Source of the DNA: a virus
Virus record (IMG/VR): IMGVR_UViG_3300033553_000827
Span: 1-35,263 of that record
Reading direction: 5' to 3' (one strand)
Length of the DNA stretch: 35,263 nucleotides
This document shows, in pieces, positions 2,971 through 35,263 of the stretch. The stretch's first letter is position 1. Every line of letters begins with the position of its first letter. A program made the translations under genes and the position numbers. The notes under the pieces are model-generated. The model was not told the origin of the DNA, made no database searches, and worked only from the letters and a program-made list of their open reading frames with translations.

Positions 2971-5900
2971 TTACCGTTTGTGGGGATAGCGAAACGCCAC
3001 GACCATGTGAGACGTGGCTACATTTGCTGCGAGAGTAGGTTGCACCTCGGCGTGACACAGATAAATCTCGTCATCTTGAAACGCCTTTTTGAGTGGGCAG
3101 TAACCAACATTCCGTTCAAGGTCGAAAAGCTGGTAATTGTTGCCAAGCGTCATGTCTATGTCATAGGCCGACTGGACCTTGTGCCCGCTATCCCCGCCCT
3201 TTGTAGAACGGGCGATAATGAAGCGACCCAACCGCCCGTACTTCCCGTCAGGGTCATCCTGAATAAATCCGTTATTGACAAGGTTGGTTTCGCTGTCGCC
3301 CGCACATTCGACAGGTTCAGTCCAAGTGTTTCCATTGTCCGTCGAAATGGAGAACGCCACATCGCCGCCGCCAGTGTTGCGGAAAAACATGACGATTGAA
3401 CCGTCTGGCCGATGCTGAATAGCAGGCTCGGAAAGAGACCCGATAGTGCCTGACGCAATCGCATCCGAAACAGGGTTGGATGAAACGAACCAATTATCAC
3501 CGCTCCCATCTCCCCCAACTTTGAAGTCGTCGCACCACATTGCGGCAAAATTTTGGTTTTGGATATTTAGCGCCGCCCAAACACGGCCATCAGGCATCTG
3601 ATAGATGTTGCCATTTTCACCAGTTGCTAGGAAACCAACGGTGAAGCCGAAGTCATCAAACAGGTCCAACACTTTGTTTGCGGCAGACCATGTGCGGCCA
3701 TTATCATCGGAGTACATTTTCCAGATGTTGCGATAATCGGGTGACTTTGTTCCTGTTGGGCTATCTTGTTGAATAAAAACCATCACAAGACGGCCTCTAA
3801 ATGGGCCATTTATGATTTTGCAAGTGGTGTATCCCTGAGCACCCCCAAGCGATGATGCAAAGCCAGGAGGCTCATAGATCACTGCCAGACGTTCCAATGT
3901 CGTAATCTCGTTGGTTGCACGATTAAACTCAAAGCGACCTTGAATGATCCGCTTGGGCTGTTCGCTGGTGTACCCGTTTTCGTCCTTCTCGCCTGAGAAA
4001 GTGATGAAACCGCAAACGTCACCGCGCTCATAAAGAACTTCAATATCTGGAATGCGGACTTTATCGAAGCCCGCACGTTCCCCTGCACGGTACACAAGCT
4101 GAGTTGCAAGAAGCTGTTTGTTGACGTTCTCAGCATCTGCATCAAGGTAGAATTTGCGCAGATCGTCGTTGGCGTCGTCAATCGCCTCTGGAACAACTAC
4201 CATTCGGTTGAGCCAGATACATTCGTTAGTTTCCAGACCCACATGTGTCATAACCGGAGCGCCCGGATTTGGATCGTACCACGGTGCCCCGCCGTTGAAG
4301 CTAAGTGCGTGATTGTTCGCCGCAACACGCATTGACATCTGCATCCGACCGCCAGCGTAGAAGTTACCAAAATTGGACAATAGCCCGGCAGTTTGGTGCT
4401 GCACACGCAAGGTCGTAACGCCTAGCTGGGTAATGACGAAACAGGCAGTCTCGGTGTTACCATCAAAGAACCCAATACGTGTACTACCTGCGGTGTCCCC
4501 GATTTTTTCAGTAGGATACCAAATATCCACATACACGCTCATTGGGTCGCCACTCGGAAAGCTGGTCAGAGGGATTTTTTGTTGCTCCGAAATCGTGGTC
4601 ACATCCGCCGTATTGCATGGAACTGCTGGCGGAACGTGACCACCAAAAATCACGTTGAACAAAGCCAACTCAATCTCGTCACCGCTTTCAGCCAGCCGGA
4701 AAACAACAGTCGGGTTTGCAACGGTGGTGCGCACCCAAACAGGGGTAAACGAACCAAGCCCGATTTCATCCGTCACGTCCTTGTAGGTCGATCCGCCATC
4801 GGCAGACATTTCAACCGCACCTGTACCTGTCTTGCGACGAACCCAAGCAAACGACATTTGACGGGTGCCCGCGGACGTAACAGCCTGCGTTACCGTACCA
4901 TTTGCTACGGTTGACGTGAGGGTGCTGCAAGGCTCCCCATGTGGCCCTACCGCGTCAAGCGCTGCCGTGGCGTTTGCCAGCGTCCAATATGTTGCATTCG
5001 TCAGGTCATCAGATGCGCGGCCCTTGTAGGTGTAAGAGAGGTCAAACCGGATTGCGCGATGGCTTGGTGTCCAGTCATAGGCAACCCCCGTGCGACGTGC
5101 TGTCGTTGTCGGGAGATACCCCACGCGCCCCATGCCACGATGCGAGTGTGCTTCGCTGGCAAATACCGTTTTTCCCGACGTGACAGCCGTGGAAGCATCA
5201 GCATTACATACACCAAGGACAATTTTTGTATTAGAAGATGCTAGCTTAAGCGATGCTGAGATATTATAAACGCCCGTGTTGTAAGGAAACCCATCCGCAT
5301 CATTCTCGGAGATTGCAGCGGTCAGGCCCGCGTCAACAGTTCCAACCACGCCAGTCGCCAAATTGAAGTACGCGCGACGGATCACCGCATTGTCTGAGAT
5401 TTCAATATAGCACCATCCCGAAGACCCTGCCTTTACAACAAATCCGCTCGTCCAGAAGAACCCTGCCACAAGCGTAAGGTTTTGCGTGATATAAGACGTA
5501 GTGCTACTTGTCGCGGTCAGCAAAGACATGCGCTTTTGACGCCCTACAGGCCCGTCATATCCTGCAACCGCACTCAGGTTAGGCCGCGCCCATGAGGTGT
5601 TAAAATCCTCGGATCGCAGAACATAATTATGCGATTGATAAAGCAGACTACCGTTTTCTTGCAGGCATAGCTTGGGGTTTATGAATGTGGTTGAAGGGAA
5701 GAAGTCCAGTGGAGAACCTTCAAAGTTGTTCGCGGGTGTCACCAAGTCCTTCACAACAATAGCGCTGCTTTTAATGTCGCTTGTCGCATCAATGAACAGG
5801 CCATCTTCACGCCCCTGCACCAGATCGTTTGCGCTGGTTTTGACGAACTCAGTCAGATCAACAATCTGATCGTCAACAGCTTCAAAAGCGCCGTACACCT

Positions 5901-6630
5901 CAGATTGCAGAAATGCCCTTTGGTCAGCCGCATAGGCCGAATTTTCAAACCGCGCACCGGGGATAGCGGTCGCCGTGCCTGCGACAATCTCATAGAACAC
6001 CATATCGGTTCCGTCGATTGTCCAGAAGGTATCACCGTCGATCAACGCGGCCTCGCCCGCCGCCAGTGTTGCATAGTAGCCCGATGATGCTGCCGCCAGC
6101 AAAGTAGCGTCACGCGCAGCCTCTGCGCTGACCACAGCATCAGCCGTGGCAATGCGGTTTAGGTCTGTTTGCGCGGCTGCCTCCTGCGCGAGGGTGGCGT
6201 TGCCTTCGCTGTCGGCTAGGGCGGCGCTTGCTGCGGCCTCCAATGCCCACGTCTTGCTCGATTTGCTGCCCTCTTCGCCGTCTGGCGATGTATCGCTTTC
6301 CGCCCAGGCTTGGGCCAGCAAGGCAAATTCATCAGTCGTCAACGTAGCAGGCAGGGCGGATATCTTATCCCAGGCGTCCGGCTGTTCGGCAGTGTCCCAT
6401 TTGTAGATGCCGCCATCGGTGCCACCGACCATTACCGCAAAGATGTCGCCCGTCGTGTTCCCTGTCGTGGGCAAGGCATCCAGCGCACCGACAAAGCCCT
6501 TGAGGATCTGCGTGGTAGCAAGAGCCTGCGTCTGCTCAAAGATCCGGACCAGATCCGGCTTTTCTGGCAAGTGACCGGAAGTCGCAGGATTGCCATAATA
6601 AGCATCCCGTGGCGTTGGAAATGTGGGCAT
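2971..6630 (-). CDS. Tail fibre / receptor-binding protein with Asp-box C-terminus
   Basis: A 1219-residue protein, start supported by AGGAGG 7 bases upstream. Residues ~1-110 look like a phage tail attachment region (IYKWDTAEQPDAWDKIS). Residues ~110-210 are alanine-rich and helical (WALEAAASAALADSEG), typical of a trimeric shaft. The middle (~290-850) is beta-rich, with repeated segments resembling carbohydrate-binding modules. The C-terminal third carries two clear Asp boxes, SDDNGRTW near residue 972 and STDNGNTW near residue 1095, the sequence signature of sialidase/BNR beta-propellers. It probably recognises, and may cleave, a host surface glycan. Sialidase catalytic residues cannot be confirmed by eye. 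Confidence 0.85.
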   Translation of the reverse strand: MPTFPTPRDAYYGNPATSGHLPEKPDLVRIFEQTQALATTQILKGFVGALDALPTTGNTTGDIFAVMVGGTDGGIYKWDTAEQPDAWDKISALPATLTTDEFALLAQAWAESDTSPDGEEGSKSSKTWALEAAASAALADSEGNATLAQEAAAQTDLNRIATADAVVSAEAARDATLLAAASSGYYATLAAGEAALIDGDTFWTIDGTDMVFYEIVAGTATAIPGARFENSAYAADQRAFLQSEVYGAFEAVDDQIVDLTEFVKTSANDLVQGREDGLFIDATSDIKSSAIVVKDLVTPANNFEGSPLDFFPSTTFINPKLCLQENGSLLYQSHNYVLRSEDFNTSWARPNLSAVAGYDGPVGRQKRMSLLTATSSTTSYITQNLTLVAGFFWTSGFVVKAGSSGWCYIEISDNAVIRRAYFNLATGVVGTVDAGLTAAISENDADGFPYNTGVYNISASLKLASSNTKIVLGVCNADASTAVTSGKTVFASEAHSHRGMGRVGYLPTTTARRTGVAYDWTPSHRAIRFDLSYTYKGRASDDLTNATYWTLANATAALDAVGPHGEPCSTLTSTVANGTVTQAVTSAGTRQMSFAWVRRKTGTGAVEMSADGGSTYKDVTDEIGLGSFTPVWVRTTVANPTVVFRLAESGDEIELALFNVIFGGHVPPAVPCNTADVTTISEQQKIPLTSFPSGDPMSVYVDIWYPTEKIGDTAGSTRIGFFDGNTETACFVITQLGVTTLRVQHQTAGLLSNFGNFYAGGRMQMSMRVAANNHALSFNGGAPWYDPNPGAPVMTHVGLETNECIWLNRMVVVPEAIDDANDDLRKFYLDADAENVNKQLLATQLVYRAGERAGFDKVRIPDIEVLYERGDVCGFITFSGEKDENGYTSEQPKRIIQGRFEFNRATNEITTLERLAVIYEPPGFASSLGGAQGYTTCKIINGPFRGRLVMVFIQQDSPTGTKSPDYRNIWKMYSDDNGRTWSAANKVLDLFDDFGFTVGFLATGENGNIYQMPDGRVWAALNIQNQNFAAMWCDDFKVGGDGSGDNWFVSSNPVSDAIASGTIGSLSEPAIQHRPDGSIVMFFRNTGGGDVAFSISTDNGNTWTEPVECAGDSETNLVNNGFIQDDPDGKYGRLGRFIIARSTKGGDSGHKVQSAYDIDMTLGNNYQLFDLERNVGYCPLKKAFQDDEIYLCHAEVQPTLAANVATSHMVVAFRYPHKR

Positions 6631-16992: not shown

Positions 16993-18303
16993 TTAGCCGG
17001 CTGTGCCCCAGGTCACGCCGGTCATGATGGACAGAGCCGCCAGATGACGCAGGCCGATGTCATGCTGCATAATCATGCGCATCAGGGTTTCGTCACGGCT
17101 GAAGGCTGCCTGCATGGTGCCGCTGGCATCCTTATAGGCCGCCTCTGTCGACATGGCGATTTCGATGCCCATGTGTTCGCCGACCATGACGTGCGCGGGG
17201 TGAACCAGCATGATTTCCGAAGCGATACCGCCACCGCCGAGGTTGTCCGGGATTTCGGTCGTGATGTGGACAGGCTTCTTGCGCAGCATGTTTTCGCCCA
17301 TCTCGGGATAGACCTTGTTGCCATTGCCGTCCCGCAGGTTGGTCAGGAACATCGCCGAGCGTGGCGACATGATCCAATGCGCCCCGGTGTAAACGATGTT
17401 GTTGTTGCCAAGGGCCAGCTCCATCGCGCCAAGATCGTTGTCGACCTTCTGGACATCAGGCACCGCCGTCATCGTCAAGATATGCGTGGCCTCAAACGGT
17501 GTGCCGAGGTGCTGGTAACGGAAGCCCTTTGGCTTGTATTCGGTACCGGCACCGCGCAGGAAGTGACGATCCTGAATTTGTGCGGCATCTTCGACGGCAT
17601 CGTCGCGGATCATCCGATCGACAGCCGTTGAGCTGGAGCGCAGCAGATCATTCGAGACCGGGATGATCCCGCTCAGCTTCTTCGCCGACAGTTTGACTTG
17701 GCCATATTCGTAGCCGGTTGCCGGCGCATCTTCCTGCTCGCCGCCATAACCGAAGTTCGCACCACTGACGCGGCGGTTGGTGGTCATGTTACCGTTCGGC
17801 ATCGGCACGATGCGCGGCCCCATTGCCGTCACGACGCTGACAGGGCGCAGCAGTTCAATCACTTCGGTCGATACGTCTTCGGGCACAAGGAAACCACCGG
17901 CGGTACCGGTGCTCATGTTCTGGTTGGCAAAGAGACCGCTGTCGCCGTTAGCTTCAGCCATCTGCTGCGCGACATAGTGATTGCCACCCGCTGCCGCGAT
18001 CGTGCGGACCATGCGGCCAAAGGTCAGACCCTTTTCGGCTGGTTTCGCAGGCGTGGTGCCAGCAACCGGCGGGGTGCTGCCGGGAAGTGGCTCAGGCGTG
18101 CGCGCAGCAGCAGCGCGGCGGCGCTCTAGATCTTCGAGGCGTGTCAGTTCCGTGGCCGCCTTGTCGTCCTGCGCTTTCAGCTCATCAAAGGCAGTCAGTT
18201 GCTCGGCGGTCATATCTTCACCATCGGGCACCTTTGCGAGCAGCGCATCCATCTGGTCGATAATACCCGCGCGGCGGGTTCTCAGCTCAAGGATTTTATC
18301 CAT
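16993..18303 (-). CDS. HK97-fold major capsid protein
   Basis: A 436-residue protein; AGGAG precedes the ATG. Residues ~1-66 are a coiled-coil delta/scaffold domain (LRTRRAGIIDQMDALLAKV, then ELTRLEDLERRRAAAAR), followed by a Pro/Gly linker (~69-90) where the prohead protease would cut. The rest is a clear HK97 capsid: TGTAGGFLVPEDVSTEVIEL, SAKKLSGIIPVSNDLLRSSS, and HWIMSPRSAMFLTNLRDGNG. The C-terminal FSRDETLMRMIMQHDIGLRH is the typical final strand. No separate scaffold gene is seen, as expected for this type. Confidence 0.96.
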   Translation of the reverse strand: MDKILELRTRRAGIIDQMDALLAKVPDGEDMTAEQLTAFDELKAQDDKAATELTRLEDLERRRAAAARTPEPLPGSTPPVAGTTPAKPAEKGLTFGRMVRTIAAAGGNHYVAQQMAEANGDSGLFANQNMSTGTAGGFLVPEDVSTEVIELLRPVSVVTAMGPRIVPMPNGNMTTNRRVSGANFGYGGEQEDAPATGYEYGQVKLSAKKLSGIIPVSNDLLRSSSTAVDRMIRDDAVEDAAQIQDRHFLRGAGTEYKPKGFRYQHLGTPFEATHILTMTAVPDVQKVDNDLGAMELALGNNNIVYTGAHWIMSPRSAMFLTNLRDGNGNKVYPEMGENMLRKKPVHITTEIPDNLGGGGIASEIMLVHPAHVMVGEHMGIEIAMSTEAAYKDASGTMQAAFSRDETLMRMIMQHDIGLRHLAALSIMTGVTWGTAG

Positions 18304-25371: not shown

Positions 25372-26285
25372 CAAGCACCGGCCCGCTGGCGCAGGATCCT
25401 CAGCAACCGCGACTGATGACCGATATCACCGACCTTTGTGTTTAGAGCCCGGAACCGCGAAACGATGTCGCCCACCTCGACCCCCAGCTCATCCGCCACC
25501 AGCGCAGCAGCTTTGCCAGTCGTCAGACCTGTCAGGATCTCGAAGTCCTTTTCGGCTGACCAGCCACCGGAATAATCCAAAGCATCCAGATGGGTGACAA
25601 CGGCACGATCATCAGCGCATAGCTTGGGCAGTTCCTGCGCAGGCTCTGGCAGAGGTGCAGGTTTGGGCATCGCTTTGGCTTCTAGCTTCACTGGCGCTGG
25701 CGTAGCGGCCACAGGGCGCGGCTTTTTCGCCCGCTCTACCTTGATCGCCTTGATCTTCATACCCACGGAGATCTTGCTCCGATTGACCATTTCAGCAATC
25801 TCATCACGGCTTTTCCCGGCATCCAGCGCCTTGGCAATGCACTCGATCTCATTTTCGGTGAACGGCCCAACCTTGTACTCACGCGGCCCCGCCTTCATCG
25901 CTTTAGCACCACTGCGGGGTTTCTTGATCGGCTCGGCAGCCTTGCGACGCGCAAAGGGCGGCGCTGAAGGCAGATCGTCAGCCTCAGCGGGTGTTGTCTC
26001 AGGCAACGGTGCAGCATCAATCGCAGGCGCTGGTTCAACCGCCTGCGGTACCAGCGACTGCACCACCGGCAACACAAAGCTGACCGAGACGCGCGCACTG
26101 GCATCGAACGTCACATCGGCATTGAGGCCAATGCGCTCAAGATCATCCTTAGCAGTGCGCAGGAAAATCAGGACATCATCGACCTGCTTCACCGCGCTTT
26201 CGAATTTGGCGAGATCGGCCTTGATGACTTCGAGAGAGGCACCGCCCTGCTCTCGCATTCCCTGAAGCTGTTCCAGAACGTTCAT
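25371..26285 (-). CDS. SANT/GcrA-like DNA-binding-type phage protein
   Basis: A 304-residue protein. The N-terminal ~50 residues are helical (ADLAKFESAVKQVDDVLIFL). A Pro/Ala-rich linker (~80-115) leads to FTENEIECIAKALDAGKSRD then EIAEMVNRSKISVGMKIKAI (~142-181), a three-helix pattern like SANT/GcrA or sigma region 4 DNA-binding modules. A second Pro/Ala linker precedes a globular C-terminus (FEILTGLTTGKAAALVADEL). No catalytic motif is seen. It lies between a methyltransferase and the replication candidate; a regulator of early genes is possible. The ATG is at a TGA-overlapping junction with the methyltransferase. Confidence 0.6.
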   Translation of the reverse strand: MNVLEQLQGMREQGGASLEVIKADLAKFESAVKQVDDVLIFLRTAKDDLERIGLNADVTFDASARVSVSFVLPVVQSLVPQAVEPAPAIDAAPLPETTPAEADDLPSAPPFARRKAAEPIKKPRSGAKAMKAGPREYKVGPFTENEIECIAKALDAGKSRDEIAEMVNRSKISVGMKIKAIKVERAKKPRPVAATPAPVKLEAKAMPKPAPLPEPAQELPKLCADDRAVVTHLDALDYSGGWSAEKDFEILTGLTTGKAAALVADELGVEVGDIVSRFRALNTKVGDIGHQSRLLRILRQRAGA

Positions 26286-27010
26286 AGCACTTGCTCCTCT
26301 TGCAGTTTATGGGCATCGACCGCCGCACGCACCCGCGCGCAGGCAGTCTCAAAATGCTTTGGTGATTTCTCGATACCGATCGCGCCCCGGCCCGCCTGGA
26401 CGGCAGCGACCAGTGTGGTGCCCGACCCCATGAAAGGATCAAGGACCAGCTGACCGGGCAGCGATGAGTTTTCGATGTAGAGCTGCATCAGCGCAACCGG
26501 CTTTTGCGTGTTGTGGACCGCGTCAGCGGGGCGATGCCCGCGCCAAACACGCTTGCTGCCACCGTTGTTGATATCGACCGCACGGCCCTTCCAGAGGTAC
26601 AACGTGAATTCGCTGTCCTTCATGTAATACCGCGTTCGGTTCGGCACGATCTTGTCCCAAACCAGCAGGCTGTGAAACTTGAACCCCGCACCGATAAACC
26701 CGCTATGAGCGGCAAACAGATTGCTGTCATCAGACATCACATAGGCATCGGCATTTGGTTTCAGAGACCGAAAGATAGGCCCGCCAATTTCAGACCATGC
26801 AACAACATCCATCAGCAGCCCTGAATTGTCGTAATTCTCGGCTGACAGCTTGCCGCCCAATGCCCCCGGACATGAACCGCCCGAAGACAGTTTATAGGGA
26901 ACATCCGTCACACACAGATCGGCTTGCAGGCGCAGCTCAGGCAAAACCGCCCGCGCATCGCCCTGAATCAACCTGCACCCGCCGATGGTGATATCGCGCT
27001 CGATGGTCAT
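26282..27010 (-). CDS. DNA methyltransferase (N6-adenine/N4-cytosine, beta-type order)
   Basis: A 242-residue protein. The catalytic motif IV is TDVPYKLSSGG at residues ~35-45, where DPPY is usual: Val replaces the first Pro. The SAM-binding motif I, DPFMGSGTT (~191-199), comes near the C-terminus, preceded by HNTQKPVAL. This order is that of beta-type methyltransferases. KFHSLLVWDKIVPNRTRYYM (~111-130) also matches phage enzymes of this group. It probably protects phage DNA from host restriction or marks it; no cognate endonuclease is adjacent. Both gene junctions overlap. Confidence 0.88.
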   Translation of the reverse strand: MTIERDITIGGCRLIQGDARAVLPELRLQADLCVTDVPYKLSSGGSCPGALGGKLSAENYDNSGLLMDVVAWSEIGGPIFRSLKPNADAYVMSDDSNLFAAHSGFIGAGFKFHSLLVWDKIVPNRTRYYMKDSEFTLYLWKGRAVDINNGGSKRVWRGHRPADAVHNTQKPVALMQLYIENSSLPGQLVLDPFMGSGTTLVAAVQAGRGAIGIEKSPKHFETACARVRAAVDAHKLQEEQVL

Positions 27011-29468: not shown

Positions 29469-29660
29469 ATGTCAGATAATGACAAGTCGAAACGTAATTT
29501 ACCCCCATCGCCCAAGTACGAGCAGCGCAGCGCGCAACCGATGCGCGTATCGCCCATTCAATCACCGCAACGCATCGTCACCGGCGGCCAACAGCCTTTG
29601 CGAGACGTGCAGACAGGTCAGACCACTTCCCCGAAACCCAAAAAGCCGAAGGAAGATTAG
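29469..29660 (+). CDS. Proline-rich small protein (convergent accessory pair)
   Basis: A 63-residue, Pro/Lys/Gln-rich, probably disordered protein (RNLPPSPKYEQRSAQ; VTGGQQPLRD; SPKPKKPKED). AAGTAGGA lies about 6 bases before the ATG. Its last 83 bases overlap the 3' end of the convergent membrane protein gene. I recall similar short proline-rich proteins encoded beside membrane proteins in prophages and mobile islands, but cannot name the family. It lies between cI and the rightward operon, a usual site of lysogenic accessory genes, so expression in the lysogen is plausible. Confidence 0.55.
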   Translation: MSDNDKSKRNLPPSPKYEQRSAQPMRVSPIQSPQRIVTGGQQPLRDVQTGQTTSPKPKKPKED

Positions 29661-30270
29661 GATCGACGCGCACTTCGATCCGCTTGATTTCTTCTTTTGA
29701 AATATAGGTCACGAGCAAACCGTATTCCGCTGAAAAAATATCCGTTCGCACCAGTTCCTTACCGGTAGGCGATACCTCATCCGTAACTGCCATTAGAACA
29801 TCACCTGAAGGGCCTAGTGAAAGCTTTGACATCGAAGGCTTGCTGATTTCAGGGGCCAAGTCTGGGTCAAGATGGAGTTCGCGCCCGTCTTTTAGGTAGA
29901 CCCTCACTTCCGTGGCCTCGTGATCATCCATCGCTGCACAAAGTGTGTCCCACGCCGAGGCTTGGCCATCTTCCTTGTGCACGCCTAGTGCCTTCATGGC
30001 CCCGTACCACCAGCCCCTGTAGACGCTGCGCCAGCCGACCCCGAGAACAAGAGGCACCATTACAGCCGCGCCGAATTGGACCGCCAATCCCCACCCGCCC
30101 GCCAGCTCAAAAAACATCAGCGATATACCGCTGAATATCCCCGTGATTATGATAGCATCCTGCGCCCGGTGATTGTGCCGCAACCCGGCATAGGAAGCAG
30201 CATAGGCAGCGAAGCCCGCTGCAATCGAGATCTGAATTTGTAGCGGCAGTGCAAGTAGATCTGGTGACAT
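29578..30270 (-). CDS. Three-span membrane protein with cytoplasmic domain (accessory, possible exclusion factor)
   Basis: A 230-residue protein, ribosome binding site AAAGGA 6 bases upstream. Three hydrophobic segments lie at about residues 12-30, 38-58 and 60-80. A beta-rich soluble domain follows (ATEVRVYLKDGRELHLDPDL, ELVRTDIFSAEYGLLVTYIS). It resembles DUF6338-type membrane proteins in layout. It faces a proline-rich small gene tail to tail and starts next to operator sites at 30351-30392. Membrane proteins here in prophages often block superinfection; this is inference from position and topology. Confidence 0.6.
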   Translation of the reverse strand: MSPDLLALPLQIQISIAAGFAAYAASYAGLRHNHRAQDAIIITGIFSGISLMFFELAGGWGLAVQFGAAVMVPLVLGVGWRSVYRGWWYGAMKALGVHKEDGQASAWDTLCAAMDDHEATEVRVYLKDGRELHLDPDLAPEISKPSMSKLSLGPSGDVLMAVTDEVSPTGKELVRTDIFSAEYGLLVTYISKEEIKRIEVRVDPNLPSAFWVSGKWSDLSARLAKAVGRR

Positions 30271-32270: not shown

Positions 32271-33260
32271 ATGGCCGAAAAACCAATCTACACCATGGAA
32301 AACCCCGCACAGACAATGCGCGATGTGATGGAAGAAATCGGGGGCAGTGAACATATCGCCGCACCAACTGATTTTGATCTGACCAAAGCGCACGTGATAA
32401 CCATTCCAGAGAAACGCACGGTCGCAGACCTCACGAAGTATCACCGTGACGCGGCGGAATACCTGAAGCCGGCGCGCCGCAAGGGCACTGCCCGCTTTGA
32501 CGATCTGGAAAGCCTCATCATGTGGGCGAACCGCTTCAAAGGCGAAACCTCGGCACTGTTTGCAAAACCCGACATGACCGCCCCGACACTGAACTGCATC
32601 GCAGACTATCACGCACAGGGCCCAGTAACGGTGAACACCCAGACAGGCGACCCTACCGCGATGCACTGCAATCATCGCGCCATCTACAATTTCCCGCTTT
32701 CCGACGAATGGAAGGCATGGATGGCAATTTCAGGCGCTGCGCTGGACAAAGATGAAATGGGCGAATTCATCGAAGTGCAGGCAAAAGACATCATGGACCC
32801 CACGCCAGCAGTCCTGCGCGGTCAGCCGTCGGACAACAATGAAAAGTGGGAAAACAAGCTGATTGAAACGGCCCATCAGATTGAAGGCCGGTATGGCCAA
32901 TTGACCCAGCTGCTGGCGATGTCCAAGAAGTTTCAGGTTTTCGAGACAAGCGACCTGAAAGTCGCCACAAACCGCGATACAGGCGAGGCGGAGATCCAGT
33001 TCCTTAACGAACACAAGGACGCAGACGGGCAACCGCTGAAGATTCCGAACCTGATCATCATTGCGATCCCGGTGTTCCTGGGCGGCGCGCTGTACCGGAT
33101 GCCCGTCCGCTTCCGGTATCGGAAGTCAGGCGCATCGGTGAAATTCATCCTGTCGATCTACAACCCCGAAAAGGCATTCGAAGCTTCATTCGAGGAGGCA
33201 ATCACAGTCGCCAAAGAACAAACAGATCTTCCATTGTTTCTTGGCACTCCGGAATCCTGA
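32271..33260 (+). CDS. DUF2303 (YfdQ-like) phage protein
   Basis: A 329-residue protein, ribosome binding site AAAGGAG upstream. The N-terminal KRTVADLTKYHRDAAEYLKP then ARRKGTARFDDLESLIMWAN is diagnostic of DUF2303/YfdQ, known from E. coli CPS-53 and many phages. PTLNCIADYHAQGPVTVNTQ and the later AIYNFPLSDEWKAWMAISG also match. The role is not established; it often lies with single-strand annealing or exonuclease genes, none of which I see here. Length is normal for the family. Confidence 0.88.
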   Translation: MAEKPIYTMENPAQTMRDVMEEIGGSEHIAAPTDFDLTKAHVITIPEKRTVADLTKYHRDAAEYLKPARRKGTARFDDLESLIMWANRFKGETSALFAKPDMTAPTLNCIADYHAQGPVTVNTQTGDPTAMHCNHRAIYNFPLSDEWKAWMAISGAALDKDEMGEFIEVQAKDIMDPTPAVLRGQPSDNNEKWENKLIETAHQIEGRYGQLTQLLAMSKKFQVFETSDLKVATNRDTGEAEIQFLNEHKDADGQPLKIPNLIIIAIPVFLGGALYRMPVRFRYRKSGASVKFILSIYNPEKAFEASFEEAITVAKEQTDLPLFLGTPES

Positions 33261-33321: not shown

Positions 33322-33453
33322 ATGTCGAAGAAAAGCATGGCCGTGCCGCGCCAGCCCACGAGCGCGCCGGTCGAGCGTGAGAACAGTGAGGTGCAGGCTT
33401 TTATCTTTTCACACACAAGGATGGAGATAGCTTATGATCACTCAACCGCTTAA
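33322..33453 (+). CDS. Possible 43-residue protein upstream of the RelA/SpoT gene
   Basis: The ATG at 33322 has a good ribosome binding site (GGGAGAA, 6 bases). The frame ends 20 bases inside the RelA/SpoT gene, so it could be translationally linked to it. It begins MSKKSMAVPRQPTSAPVERE and has VQAFIFSHTRMEIAYD. No family is recognised. If real, a small partner such as an antitoxin or regulator of the next gene is one possibility; it is only a candidate. Confidence 0.4.
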   Translation: MSKKSMAVPRQPTSAPVERENSEVQAFIFSHTRMEIAYDHSTA

Positions 33454-34654
33454 TCTCGCGGCAATCCAAAAAAATTGCACTGAGGTATTTGATGTGTCCG
33501 ACTTCCCGCGCCTTGAGTTTTCAAAGAAAGACGTTGTCCGCGCAGGCAGCTCACTCAAAGGGCGCATCCTGTGGACATCAGAGAACGAAGCAGAAATTCT
33601 TCGGGTTTTTCAGATCGCAAACAGCTGGCGTGCATCCCATGCATTTCCAATGCACAGAATGCGGGCTGAGCTTCATGGCCGCATGAGTGCGTTGAAGATC
33701 AGAGGGCTGACCGCCGCACGCCTAAAGCAAATGACCTCAATTCGGGGAAAACTAATCCGGATTAGCAGCAACCTTAGACAGTTGCAGGATCTTGGTGGCT
33801 GCCGAGCTGTCGTGCCCACCATAGCGGAAGCTAAAGTTTTAGCCGCTGAGATCGGTGAGAAATATCCACACTATTTGAAGCGTGAAGACGCATACATGGA
33901 TTCGCCACGGCCGAGCGGTTATCGGAGTCACCATCTGGTGTTTGCATTTACACCCCGCAATATCCACGAAACAGAGTACGAAGGTCGATTGATAGAAATT
34001 CAGATACGTAGTCGACTTCAGCATTCATGGGCGACAGCTGTCGAGGCTGTAGGTCTTTATCGTGGAGAAAACTTAAAGGCTGGTTACGGCAGCAAAGATT
34101 GGCTCCGCCTGTTTGAACTTATGTCTTTTGAATTTGCCCTGAGTGAAGGATGTGAATTTGCACAAGATGGGTCAAATGAAAGAGTTGCTGAGATTATTGA
34201 TCTAAATAATTCGTTGAATGCAGCGCAAACTCTAGACACGCTTAGTCATGCAGTTCTTGGCCTTGATAGAATTGAGCGTGATCGCAATCACAAGCCAAAA
34301 TATTGCCTGATTACCTATGACCATCAAAACCGAAAAGTTGGGGTAAAATATCTCGATGGTCCTTCAAATATTGGGTCGGCTCTTGAACGCGGTAATGCAA
34401 ATAGCGACGACGAAAATAGATATAGCGCTGTGGTAGTCGAGTTAGACAAAATTGAAAATCTAAAGAGCGCATACCCTAATTACTTTGGAGATGTTCAACT
34501 TTTCAAGTCAGCGCTGTCAGACGTAGTAAGTGGAAAGCCTCCAAGAGAGTATTCCTTACCTCCAATTGAACGTGTGCCACCACCACCCAAGGAGATCCCT
34601 GACGATTCATGGCTTCGATATCCGAACCGTCGCAATCGTCGTTGGGATGAGTAG
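33434..34654 (+). CDS. RelA/SpoT-domain nucleotidyltransferase (alarmone synthetase-like)
   Basis: A 406-residue protein. Residues ~60-205 match the RelA/SpoT synthetase fold: an N-terminal helical lead-in (NSWRASHAFPMHRMRAEL), SIRGKLIR (~102-109), the metal-binding LQDLGGCRAVV (Asp119), YMDSPRPSGYRSHHL (~154-168, nucleotide-binding Tyr/His region) and IEIQIRSRLQHSWA with the conserved Glu188. No HD hydrolase, TGS or ACT domain is present. A C-terminal ~170-residue extension (KPKYCLITYDHQNRKVGVKY; proline-rich ~370-385) is of unknown role. It may make ppGpp/pppApp or pyrophosphorylate tRNA, as toxic small alarmone synthetases do. The gene is distinctly AT-richer than its neighbours, indicating transfer. 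GGAG lies 8 bases upstream. Confidence 0.88.
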   Translation: MITQPLNLAAIQKNCTEVFDVSDFPRLEFSKKDVVRAGSSLKGRILWTSENEAEILRVFQIANSWRASHAFPMHRMRAELHGRMSALKIRGLTAARLKQMTSIRGKLIRISSNLRQLQDLGGCRAVVPTIAEAKVLAAEIGEKYPHYLKREDAYMDSPRPSGYRSHHLVFAFTPRNIHETEYEGRLIEIQIRSRLQHSWATAVEAVGLYRGENLKAGYGSKDWLRLFELMSFEFALSEGCEFAQDGSNERVAEIIDLNNSLNAAQTLDTLSHAVLGLDRIERDRNHKPKYCLITYDHQNRKVGVKYLDGPSNIGSALERGNANSDDENRYSAVVVELDKIENLKSAYPNYFGDVQLFKSALSDVVSGKPPREYSLPPIERVPPPPKEIPDDSWLRYPNRRNRRWDE

Positions 34655-34657
34655 AAA

Positions 34658-35038
34658 ATGACTAAGTCGCCGTTATTTCACGATGATTGGTTTTGTCGGC
34701 CCATACGCATCCAGCTGCAGCGCACCAAAGGATGGCGCATGCCGACCAACACAGTGAACGTTGCGCGTGGGCCCGGTCGCGAATGGGGAAACCCTTGGAT
34801 CATTGGCAACAAACGTTGCGGGCGCGACGCACTTGGAAATTATCAGGAAGAGCTGATCAAAGACGCCGAAACAGCGGTGCACTTCTTTTCGGAAATGCTT
34901 GAATACGAACTGCGGCGATACCCCAGCAACGATGAAATCCGCGCCGAGCTGCGCGGCAAGAACCTCGCCTGCTGGTGCAAGCTGGATGCGCCCTGCCATG
35001 CAGACGTTCTGCTGCGAATTGCGAACGAGGACACCTGA
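34658..35038 (+). CDS. DUF4326 family protein
   Basis: A 126-residue protein. RIQLQRTKGWRMPTNTVNVA (~17-36), EWGNPWIIG and the C-terminal LRGKNLACWCKLDAPCHADV then LLRIAN are diagnostic of DUF4326, a small phage and bacterial family. Two Cys-His-type clusters (CWCKLDAPCH) suggest a metal or catalytic site, but the activity is not established. It starts 3 bases after the RelA/SpoT gene stop, so the two are probably co-transcribed. The composition returns to GC-rich here, unlike the preceding gene. Confidence 0.85.
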   Translation: MTKSPLFHDDWFCRPIRIQLQRTKGWRMPTNTVNVARGPGREWGNPWIIGNKRCGRDALGNYQEELIKDAETAVHFFSEMLEYELRRYPSNDEIRAELRGKNLACWCKLDAPCHADVLLRIANEDT

Positions 35039-35041
35039 CCC

Positions 35042-35263
35042 ATGCCAGTCACCCTTGATTTTGCCCCAAGGCTGATGCCCGCACCCCAGGCAGCACACTA
35101 TATAGGTGTGTCAGCCAGCACGTTGCGAACCCTGCCGATCCCACGGAAAGAGAACGGCACCAAGCGCCTCTATGACAAACGCGACCTTGACGACTACGTT
35201 GACGCGCTGCCCTATGAAGGCCAGACAGGGGAAAACACATGCGACGCGGTATTCAGCGATTGA
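35042..35263 (+). CDS. Excisionase-like HTH protein (AlpA/MerR type)
   Basis: A 73-residue protein. LMPAPQAAHYIGVSASTLRT (~11-30) then LPIPRKENGTKRLYDKRDLD is the standard winged helix-turn-helix of AlpA/Xis-type proteins (site choice, then R/K-x-Y-D-x-x-D-L-D). Its end overlaps the beginning of a frame that looks like an integrase. A recombination directionality factor beside integrase is the expected arrangement. The stop is at the last base of the window. Confidence 0.8.
   Translation: MPVTLDFAPRLMPAPQAAHYIGVSASTLRTLPIPRKENGTKRLYDKRDLDDYVDALPYEGQTGENTCDAVFSD
35239..35263 (+). CDS. Start of probable tyrosine integrase (runs off the window)
   Basis: An ATG preceded by CAGGGGAA at 6 bases opens a frame reading MRRGIQRL to the window edge, overlapping the excisionase-like gene. 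Roseophage integrases often begin with this kind of sequence (RRGI..L). Only eight codons are visible, so this is inference from position and the ribosome binding site. Confidence 0.5.

Follow-up and report, generated by a model that had tools for sequence, protein, structure and literature searches.

A RelA/SpoT-type synthetase gene near the integrase end of a prophage raises the question of whether its product serves growth control or phage exclusion, and of what holds it in check. We have analysed the DNA around such a gene over a stretch of 35,263 nucleotides (here called the window), which corresponds to C80:20193-55455 of its genome. A first-pass annotation had proposed the gene as a candidate abortive-infection or exclusion factor. 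This proposal is supported by CapRel homology throughout the protein and by the conservation of its catalytic and neutralising residues. In our view, the gene is very probably prophage cargo encoding a fused toxSAS toxin-antitoxin of the CapRel type, where infection would be aborted by a self-inhibited, tRNA-pyrophosphorylating enzyme whose sensor domain would be released by phage and whose switch may be tuned by a C-terminal tail. The region between the phage gene DUF2303 and the integrase gene is organised as follows:

32271-33260, plus strand: DUF2303 phage gene, left edge of the cargo zone (Pfam PF10065, E 7.5e-55; 26 related proviruses)
33322-33453, plus strand: 43-codon frame upstream of the CapRel gene, no convincing family match in Pfam or PHROG
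33494-34654, plus strand: putative CapRel-type fused toxSAS toxin-antitoxin, 386 aa from a probable GTG start (phmmer 7ZTB, PADLOC PDC-S33, PHROG 4773)
34658-35038, plus strand: DUF4326 phage gene, neighbour of the CapRel gene (Pfam PF14216, E 7.4e-21)
35042-35263, plus strand: excisionase-like helix-turn-helix protein (PHROG 66, E 2.8e-4; HTH_17 below cut-off)
35239-35263, plus strand: 5' end of the tyrosine integrase gene; the gene runs on past the window (L013:2432-3511) to a tRNA-Arg and the att repeat

Genes for terminase, portal, protease, major head protein, tape measure and tail fibre were found in the prophage, and the integrase gene that starts at 35239 ends beside the tRNA-Arg. The 3' end of this tRNA is covered by an exact 16-bp repeat, ATGGTGAACCCAGCTG (C80:56540-56555), which occurs again at C80:17286-17301. 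These two att copies bound a predicted prophage of ~39 kb, of the HK97 type, in which the CapRel gene lies close to the end that carries the integrase. The nearest relatives, from Sphingomonadales and rhizobia, point to an alphaproteobacterial host setting.

The frame at 33434-34654 on the plus strand is open, as had been annotated, and gives 406 codons of protein from the ATG at 33434. The start itself is probably the GTG at 33494, giving 386 aa, because the DNA similarity of two Sphingomonadales chromosomes to the window begins at 33495 (L002) and 33491 (L003) and because the relatives begin at an equivalent MS(E/D)(F/Y)P. A purine-rich TGAGG precedes this GTG, and a purine-rich leader is found at both plausible starts. 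With the later start, the overlap of the CapRel gene with the 43-codon frame (33322-33453) is gone. Residues are numbered here for the 386-aa version; adding 20 gives the numbering of the 406-aa version.

The only Pfam domain above cut-off in the window protein is the synthetase domain RelA_SpoT (E 4.1e-17, 62.9 bits, cut-off 27); hydrolase, TGS and ACT domains gave no Pfam match, in agreement with the earlier reading. A phmmer search against solved structures identified CapRel-SJ46 (7ZTB; complex with Gp54, 9ERV) at E 2.4e-26. The alignment covers residues 26-362 of the 406-aa version, toxin and antitoxin domains alike, whereas the next matches, small alarmone synthetases, cover the synthetase core only. 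Profile searches gave PADLOC PDC-S33 (E 2e-92) and PHROG 4773 (E 3.5e-70), both of which are family labels with no named function in those libraries; these matches stop near residue 365 of the 406-aa version and leave the tail outside. A search of BFVD returned partial RelA/SpoT matches only. Other identities were rejected: the small alarmone synthetase model of the YjbM type (NCBIfam NF053588) reached 33.8 bits against a cut-off of 320, and the long RSH model for RelA/SpoT/Rel (TIGR00691) 21.6 bits against 499.2, with the synthetase region alone matched. A Pfam match to Zot (E 0.045) lies under its own cut-off and overlaps the synthetase region.

As judged from these alignments, the window protein is a homologue of CapRel-SJ46 over its whole length, with a single-chain toxin-antitoxin layout. 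One open reading frame carries an N-terminal toxSYNTH domain and a homologous C-terminal domain, as in fused CapRels. The first-pass annotation had noted a C-terminal extension of ~170 residues that classical small alarmone synthetases lack. This holds for those enzymes, but fused CapRels do have a homologous antitoxin/sensor domain. The suggestion that this part acts as sensor or autoinhibitor gains support from the full-length CapRel homology and the conserved neutralising residues. The predicted parts of the protein, all on the plus strand, are:

33605-34156, plus strand: toxSYNTH (nucleotide pyrophosphokinase) domain, residues ~38-221, from Pfam RelA_SpoT and structural alignment with small alarmone synthetases
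33719-33721, plus strand: Arg76, equivalent to R79 of CapRel-SJ46 (ATP coordination), invariant in 17/17 and 22/22 aligned sequences
33803-33805, plus strand: Arg104, equivalent to R116 of CapRel-SJ46 (ATP coordination), an invariant column in the sequence alignments
33920-33922, plus strand: G-loop Tyr143 (Tyr163 in the 406-aa numbering), equivalent to Y155 of CapRel-SJ46, an invariant column
33995-33997, plus strand: Glu168 (Glu188 in the 406-aa numbering) of the IEIQIRS motif, invariant in 22 sequences
34157-34534, plus strand: C-terminal anchor helices and pseudo-zinc-finger antitoxin/sensor domain, residues ~222-347; the 7ZTB fold match reaches 347
34472-34483, plus strand: YXXY neutralisation motif Y327-P-N-Y330, equivalent to Y352/Y355 of CapRel-SJ46, from sequence alignments
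34535-34651, plus strand: C-terminal tail, residues 348-386, with a Pro-rich disordered linker and the terminal motif PDDSWLRYPNRRNRRW (34598-34645); clade-conserved, low pLDDT

The synthetase motifs of the window protein are LQDLGGCRAVV, YMDSPRPSGYRSHH with the G-loop tyrosine, and IEIQIRS. These motifs had been recognised before, together with the glutamate at 188, and were confirmed here; as in the family generally, Glu168 of IEIQIRS would be catalytic. CapRel-SJ46 combines toxin and antitoxin in one chain, senses phage and pyrophosphorylates tRNA (PMC9712102, PMC11578894). Its ATP is held by R79 and R116, with Y155 in the G-loop, and its off-state depends on Y352/Y355 of the YXXY motif together with A77, V338, L339, A341 and A351, mutants of which are toxic (PMC9712102). 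In our alignment, A77, R79, R116, Y155, V338, A351, Y352 and Y355 are all present in the window protein, the equivalents of A77, V338 and A351 being A74, V313 and A326. Two interface positions are altered (L339 to V314 and A341 to E316), while every published key position that is invariant across the family is retained.

An AlphaFold2 model built from 22 sequences (pLDDT 83, pTM 0.80) had 7ZTB residues 12-372 as its best structure match, with Z 26.1 and an rmsd of 3.1 over 278 residues. RelQ/RelP came next at Z 14-15, small alarmone synthetases being aligned at residues 39-221, and Tas1 scored only Z 10.0. According to the alignment with 7ZTB, the pseudo-zinc-finger C-terminal fold with its anchor helices is present in the model. 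The YPNY forms a short helix in this model, whose rmsd to the open crystal is 10.4. A model from 9 sequences, comprising the tailed relatives only, is less confident (pLDDT 76) and comes close to the open crystal (rmsd 4.8, TM 0.70). The two arrangements are suggestive of the published closed and open CapRel states, a resemblance judged from scores.

Overall, the window protein resembles CapRel-SJ46 from Salmonella phage SJ46 (7ZTB, 9ERV) in domain order, predicted fold, single-chain layout and temperate-phage carrier, and also in the ATP-site arginines, the G-loop tyrosine and the YXXY motif. It differs in having only ~27% sequence identity and a C-terminal tail of 39 residues. The carriers differ as well, SJ46 being a Punavirus and the window CapRel residing in an HK97-type prophage. 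RelQ/RelP (YjbM, YwaC) share the synthetase core fold, but they have neither the antitoxin domain nor the YXXY motif, both of which are found in the window protein. CapRel-Ebc, a sensor of T7 Gp0.4 with FtsZ, shows that triggers can be unrelated even between close CapRels and that host factors can be enlisted (PMC13423816). It is the same kind of fused toxSAS, likened here by its description.

Toxicity, substrate and phage protection are proposed for the window protein by homology with the SJ46 and Ebc proteins. In the uninfected lysogen, the pseudo-zinc-finger domain would be folded back, with YPNY inserted into the ATP site and flanked by Arg76 and Arg104, keeping the enzyme off. Upon infection by another phage, a phage protein or a phage-host complex may bind the fast-evolving C-terminal domain and open the enzyme. 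The toxSYNTH domain would then move a pyrophosphate group from ATP onto the 3'-CCA of tRNA, translation would be halted and the infection aborted. The SW-type tail might tune this switch through docking, be it of a trigger, of a host factor or of the protein on itself.

The features of the C-terminal domain are in keeping with such a sensor. Identity to the three closest relatives is 51-54% in the sensor domain versus 76-81% in the toxin domain, and to the more distant L065 it is 23% versus 49%. In these comparisons, the C-terminal domain is the fastest-diverging part of the protein.

Other functions have to be considered for a protein of this family. Since the domain resembles alarmone synthetases (RelQ/RelP at Z 14-15, with the NCBIfam YjbM model below its cut-off), it is conceivable that this fused toxSAS leaves tRNA unmodified and acts by synthesising an alarmone, (pp)pApp or ppGpp, and exhausting ATP. 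We regard this as improbable, since the tRNA-pyrophosphorylating CapRel is closest both by sequence and by fold, Tas1 scores only Z 10.0, and the donor-site blocking YXXY motif accompanies translation-targeting toxSASs (PMC11782079). Membership in the RelA/SpoT family might also hint at a tool of the phage or host for the stringent response, controlling growth through ppGpp rather than serving in defence. This is very improbable indeed: a long RSH is already encoded by the host itself (717-aa frame, contig C81), the PADLOC PDC-S33 match is of the defence type, and the relatives are patchily present and lie on mobile elements.

The neighbouring genes are closely spaced on one strand, which would suit a multi-gene system with the 43-codon frame as neutraliser of the toxin and DUF4326 as co-effector. 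Both had been put forward as partners, and neither role is supported by the comparison. The antitoxin is already fused in the CapRel chain, DUF4326 is present in proviruses without CapRel and shows no co-occurrence with CapRel elsewhere, and no conserved neighbour was found across 12 loci of relatives, except between near-copies; we give such a system hardly any chance. The 43-codon frame, which has no homologue, no conserved position and no counterpart in any related locus, is most likely a small phage gene occupying this place locally, or what is left of one, and not an antitoxin. At its position, the related locus L081 has a different frame of 133 codons with a similar leader. Somewhat more weight, although still little, goes to a decayed or silent cargo gene, whose frame is intact but whose expression or triggering in the lysogen has been lost. 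A promoter scan upstream of the CapRel gene gave a count at chance level, so that expression in the lysogen is putative; moreover, some relatives carry internal stops (see below). On the other hand, the frame is intact, the family-invariant key residues are all kept and the leader is purine-rich at either start. A scan revealed no terminator-like site directly 3' of the CapRel gene.

The preferred reading, a fused CapRel as cargo, also agrees with the genomic setting. The stretch from DUF2303 to the integrase is a variable cargo zone, and other genes occupy it in 26 proviruses with a related DUF2303 (31-77% identity). None of these 26 has a CapRel in the DUF2303-side cargo zone within the stretch covered. 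The related provirus L004 carries a 66%-identical CapRel elsewhere, with a phrog_9306 gene on one side and an HNH endonuclease/terminase on the other. In the Sphingomonadales chromosomes L002 and L003, CapRel lies in a common 1.8-kb block with different surroundings. The CapRel gene has a GC content of 47.4% and a GC3 of 0.42 (43.3% and 0.32 in its C-terminal part), compared with 55-63% and 0.61-0.76 in most phage genes. The variable zone, the AT-richness and the lack of a common neighbour fit mobile cargo, as had been supposed from base composition, with no obligatory partner. In the same cargo zone of another related provirus (L091:5558-7774, between DUF2303 and an excisionase-like gene), we found a 738-aa protein that is cytosine DNA methyltransferase-like.

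Using a threshold of E <= 1e-40, CapRel relatives were detected in 8 of 391 genomes of the order and in 12 of 398 genomes of the phylum, and further ones occur on phages, proviruses and plasmids. In a tree built without the tail columns, the window protein falls into a clade of 15 CapRels with 100/100 support. This clade is new, and 13 of its members have a tail. A second, well separated CapRel-like clade (100/100; L016, L017, L153, L154, L162-L164, L166, L035, L036) has FRNYF or FKNYF instead of YPNYF, and two of its members are found in genomes of the window's own genus. Three CapRel relatives (L156, L158 and L160, in genomes G960, G1094 and G1134) contain internal stop codons, which suggests frequent decay of the gene. 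The annotation of phage vB_EcoM-673R5 (L070; SJ46 itself is L064) divides a CapRel-like gene into two frames next to each other, URC10210.2 and WMI38117.1, which we interpret as a split or broken gene of the SJ46 type.

CapRels of the SJ46 type end after the last anchor helix; SJ46 and other CapRels have no tail. In the 13 tailed clade members, a variable and often Pro-rich linker is followed by a conserved terminal [ST]W[LFW] motif, which is basic in most. The motif reads PDDSWLRYPNRRNRRW in the window protein, where it includes W373, PDLSWFKQRHRRW on rhizobial plasmids, and GDYSWLHNWRRRARSGR or DDFSWLRDYRTKRR in genomes of the same family. Of the remaining two members, L104 has a degenerate form and L066 no tail. 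Eleven of the 12 distinct tails contain [ST]W[LFW]; in 5000 shuffling trials, the mean was 0.24 and the maximum 3. This excess is due in part to common descent, yet the linker diverged while the motif did not. The tail is disordered in the AlphaFold models, with pLDDT <50 in the run with tailed relatives only. The CapRel/toxSAS literature that we searched, mainly open-access, makes no mention of such a tail.

We infer that the tail may be an extra docking or gating element, acting as a second lock or as a contact for a host factor or for the trigger. Slightly below even chances, in our estimate, stands a more specific idea: the clade would have a third regulatory element in this conserved short linear motif (SW/basic), which is carried by a disordered linker, binds a partner from the host or the phage, or else a second enzyme site, and gates the activation step. 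If true, infection would be sensed by tailed CapRels in another way than by CapRel-SJ46 and CapRel-Ebc. As a short, defined element that can be deleted, the tail lends itself to direct measurement of what it contributes to sensing or self-inhibition. In the CapRel literature searched, the CapRels with published triggers are all enterobacterial and respond to coliphages. With a CapRel from a distant bacterium, on a prophage that looks complete, it can be tested whether the same switch operates in other phage-host pairs. Moreover, the HK97-type capsid of the prophage itself (major capsid protein at 16993-18303, minus strand) raises the question of self-immunity, namely whether the phage avoids triggering its own CapRel.

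Further genes of the prophage were noted on the minus strand. At 26282-27010 lies a phage DNA methyltransferase (PHROG 67 and PADLOC type II methyltransferase models), with no restriction enzyme seen beside it. The frame at 2971-6630 adjoins the tail genes and encodes 1219 aa with a BNR-repeat domain (PF13088) and no PHROG match; its product is likely a receptor-binding or glycan-acting tail protein. At 29578-30270, a protein of 230 aa (PHROG 12870) with hydrophobic N-terminal segments is encoded next to a repressor-like gene, and this might possibly be a second lysogenic cargo gene.
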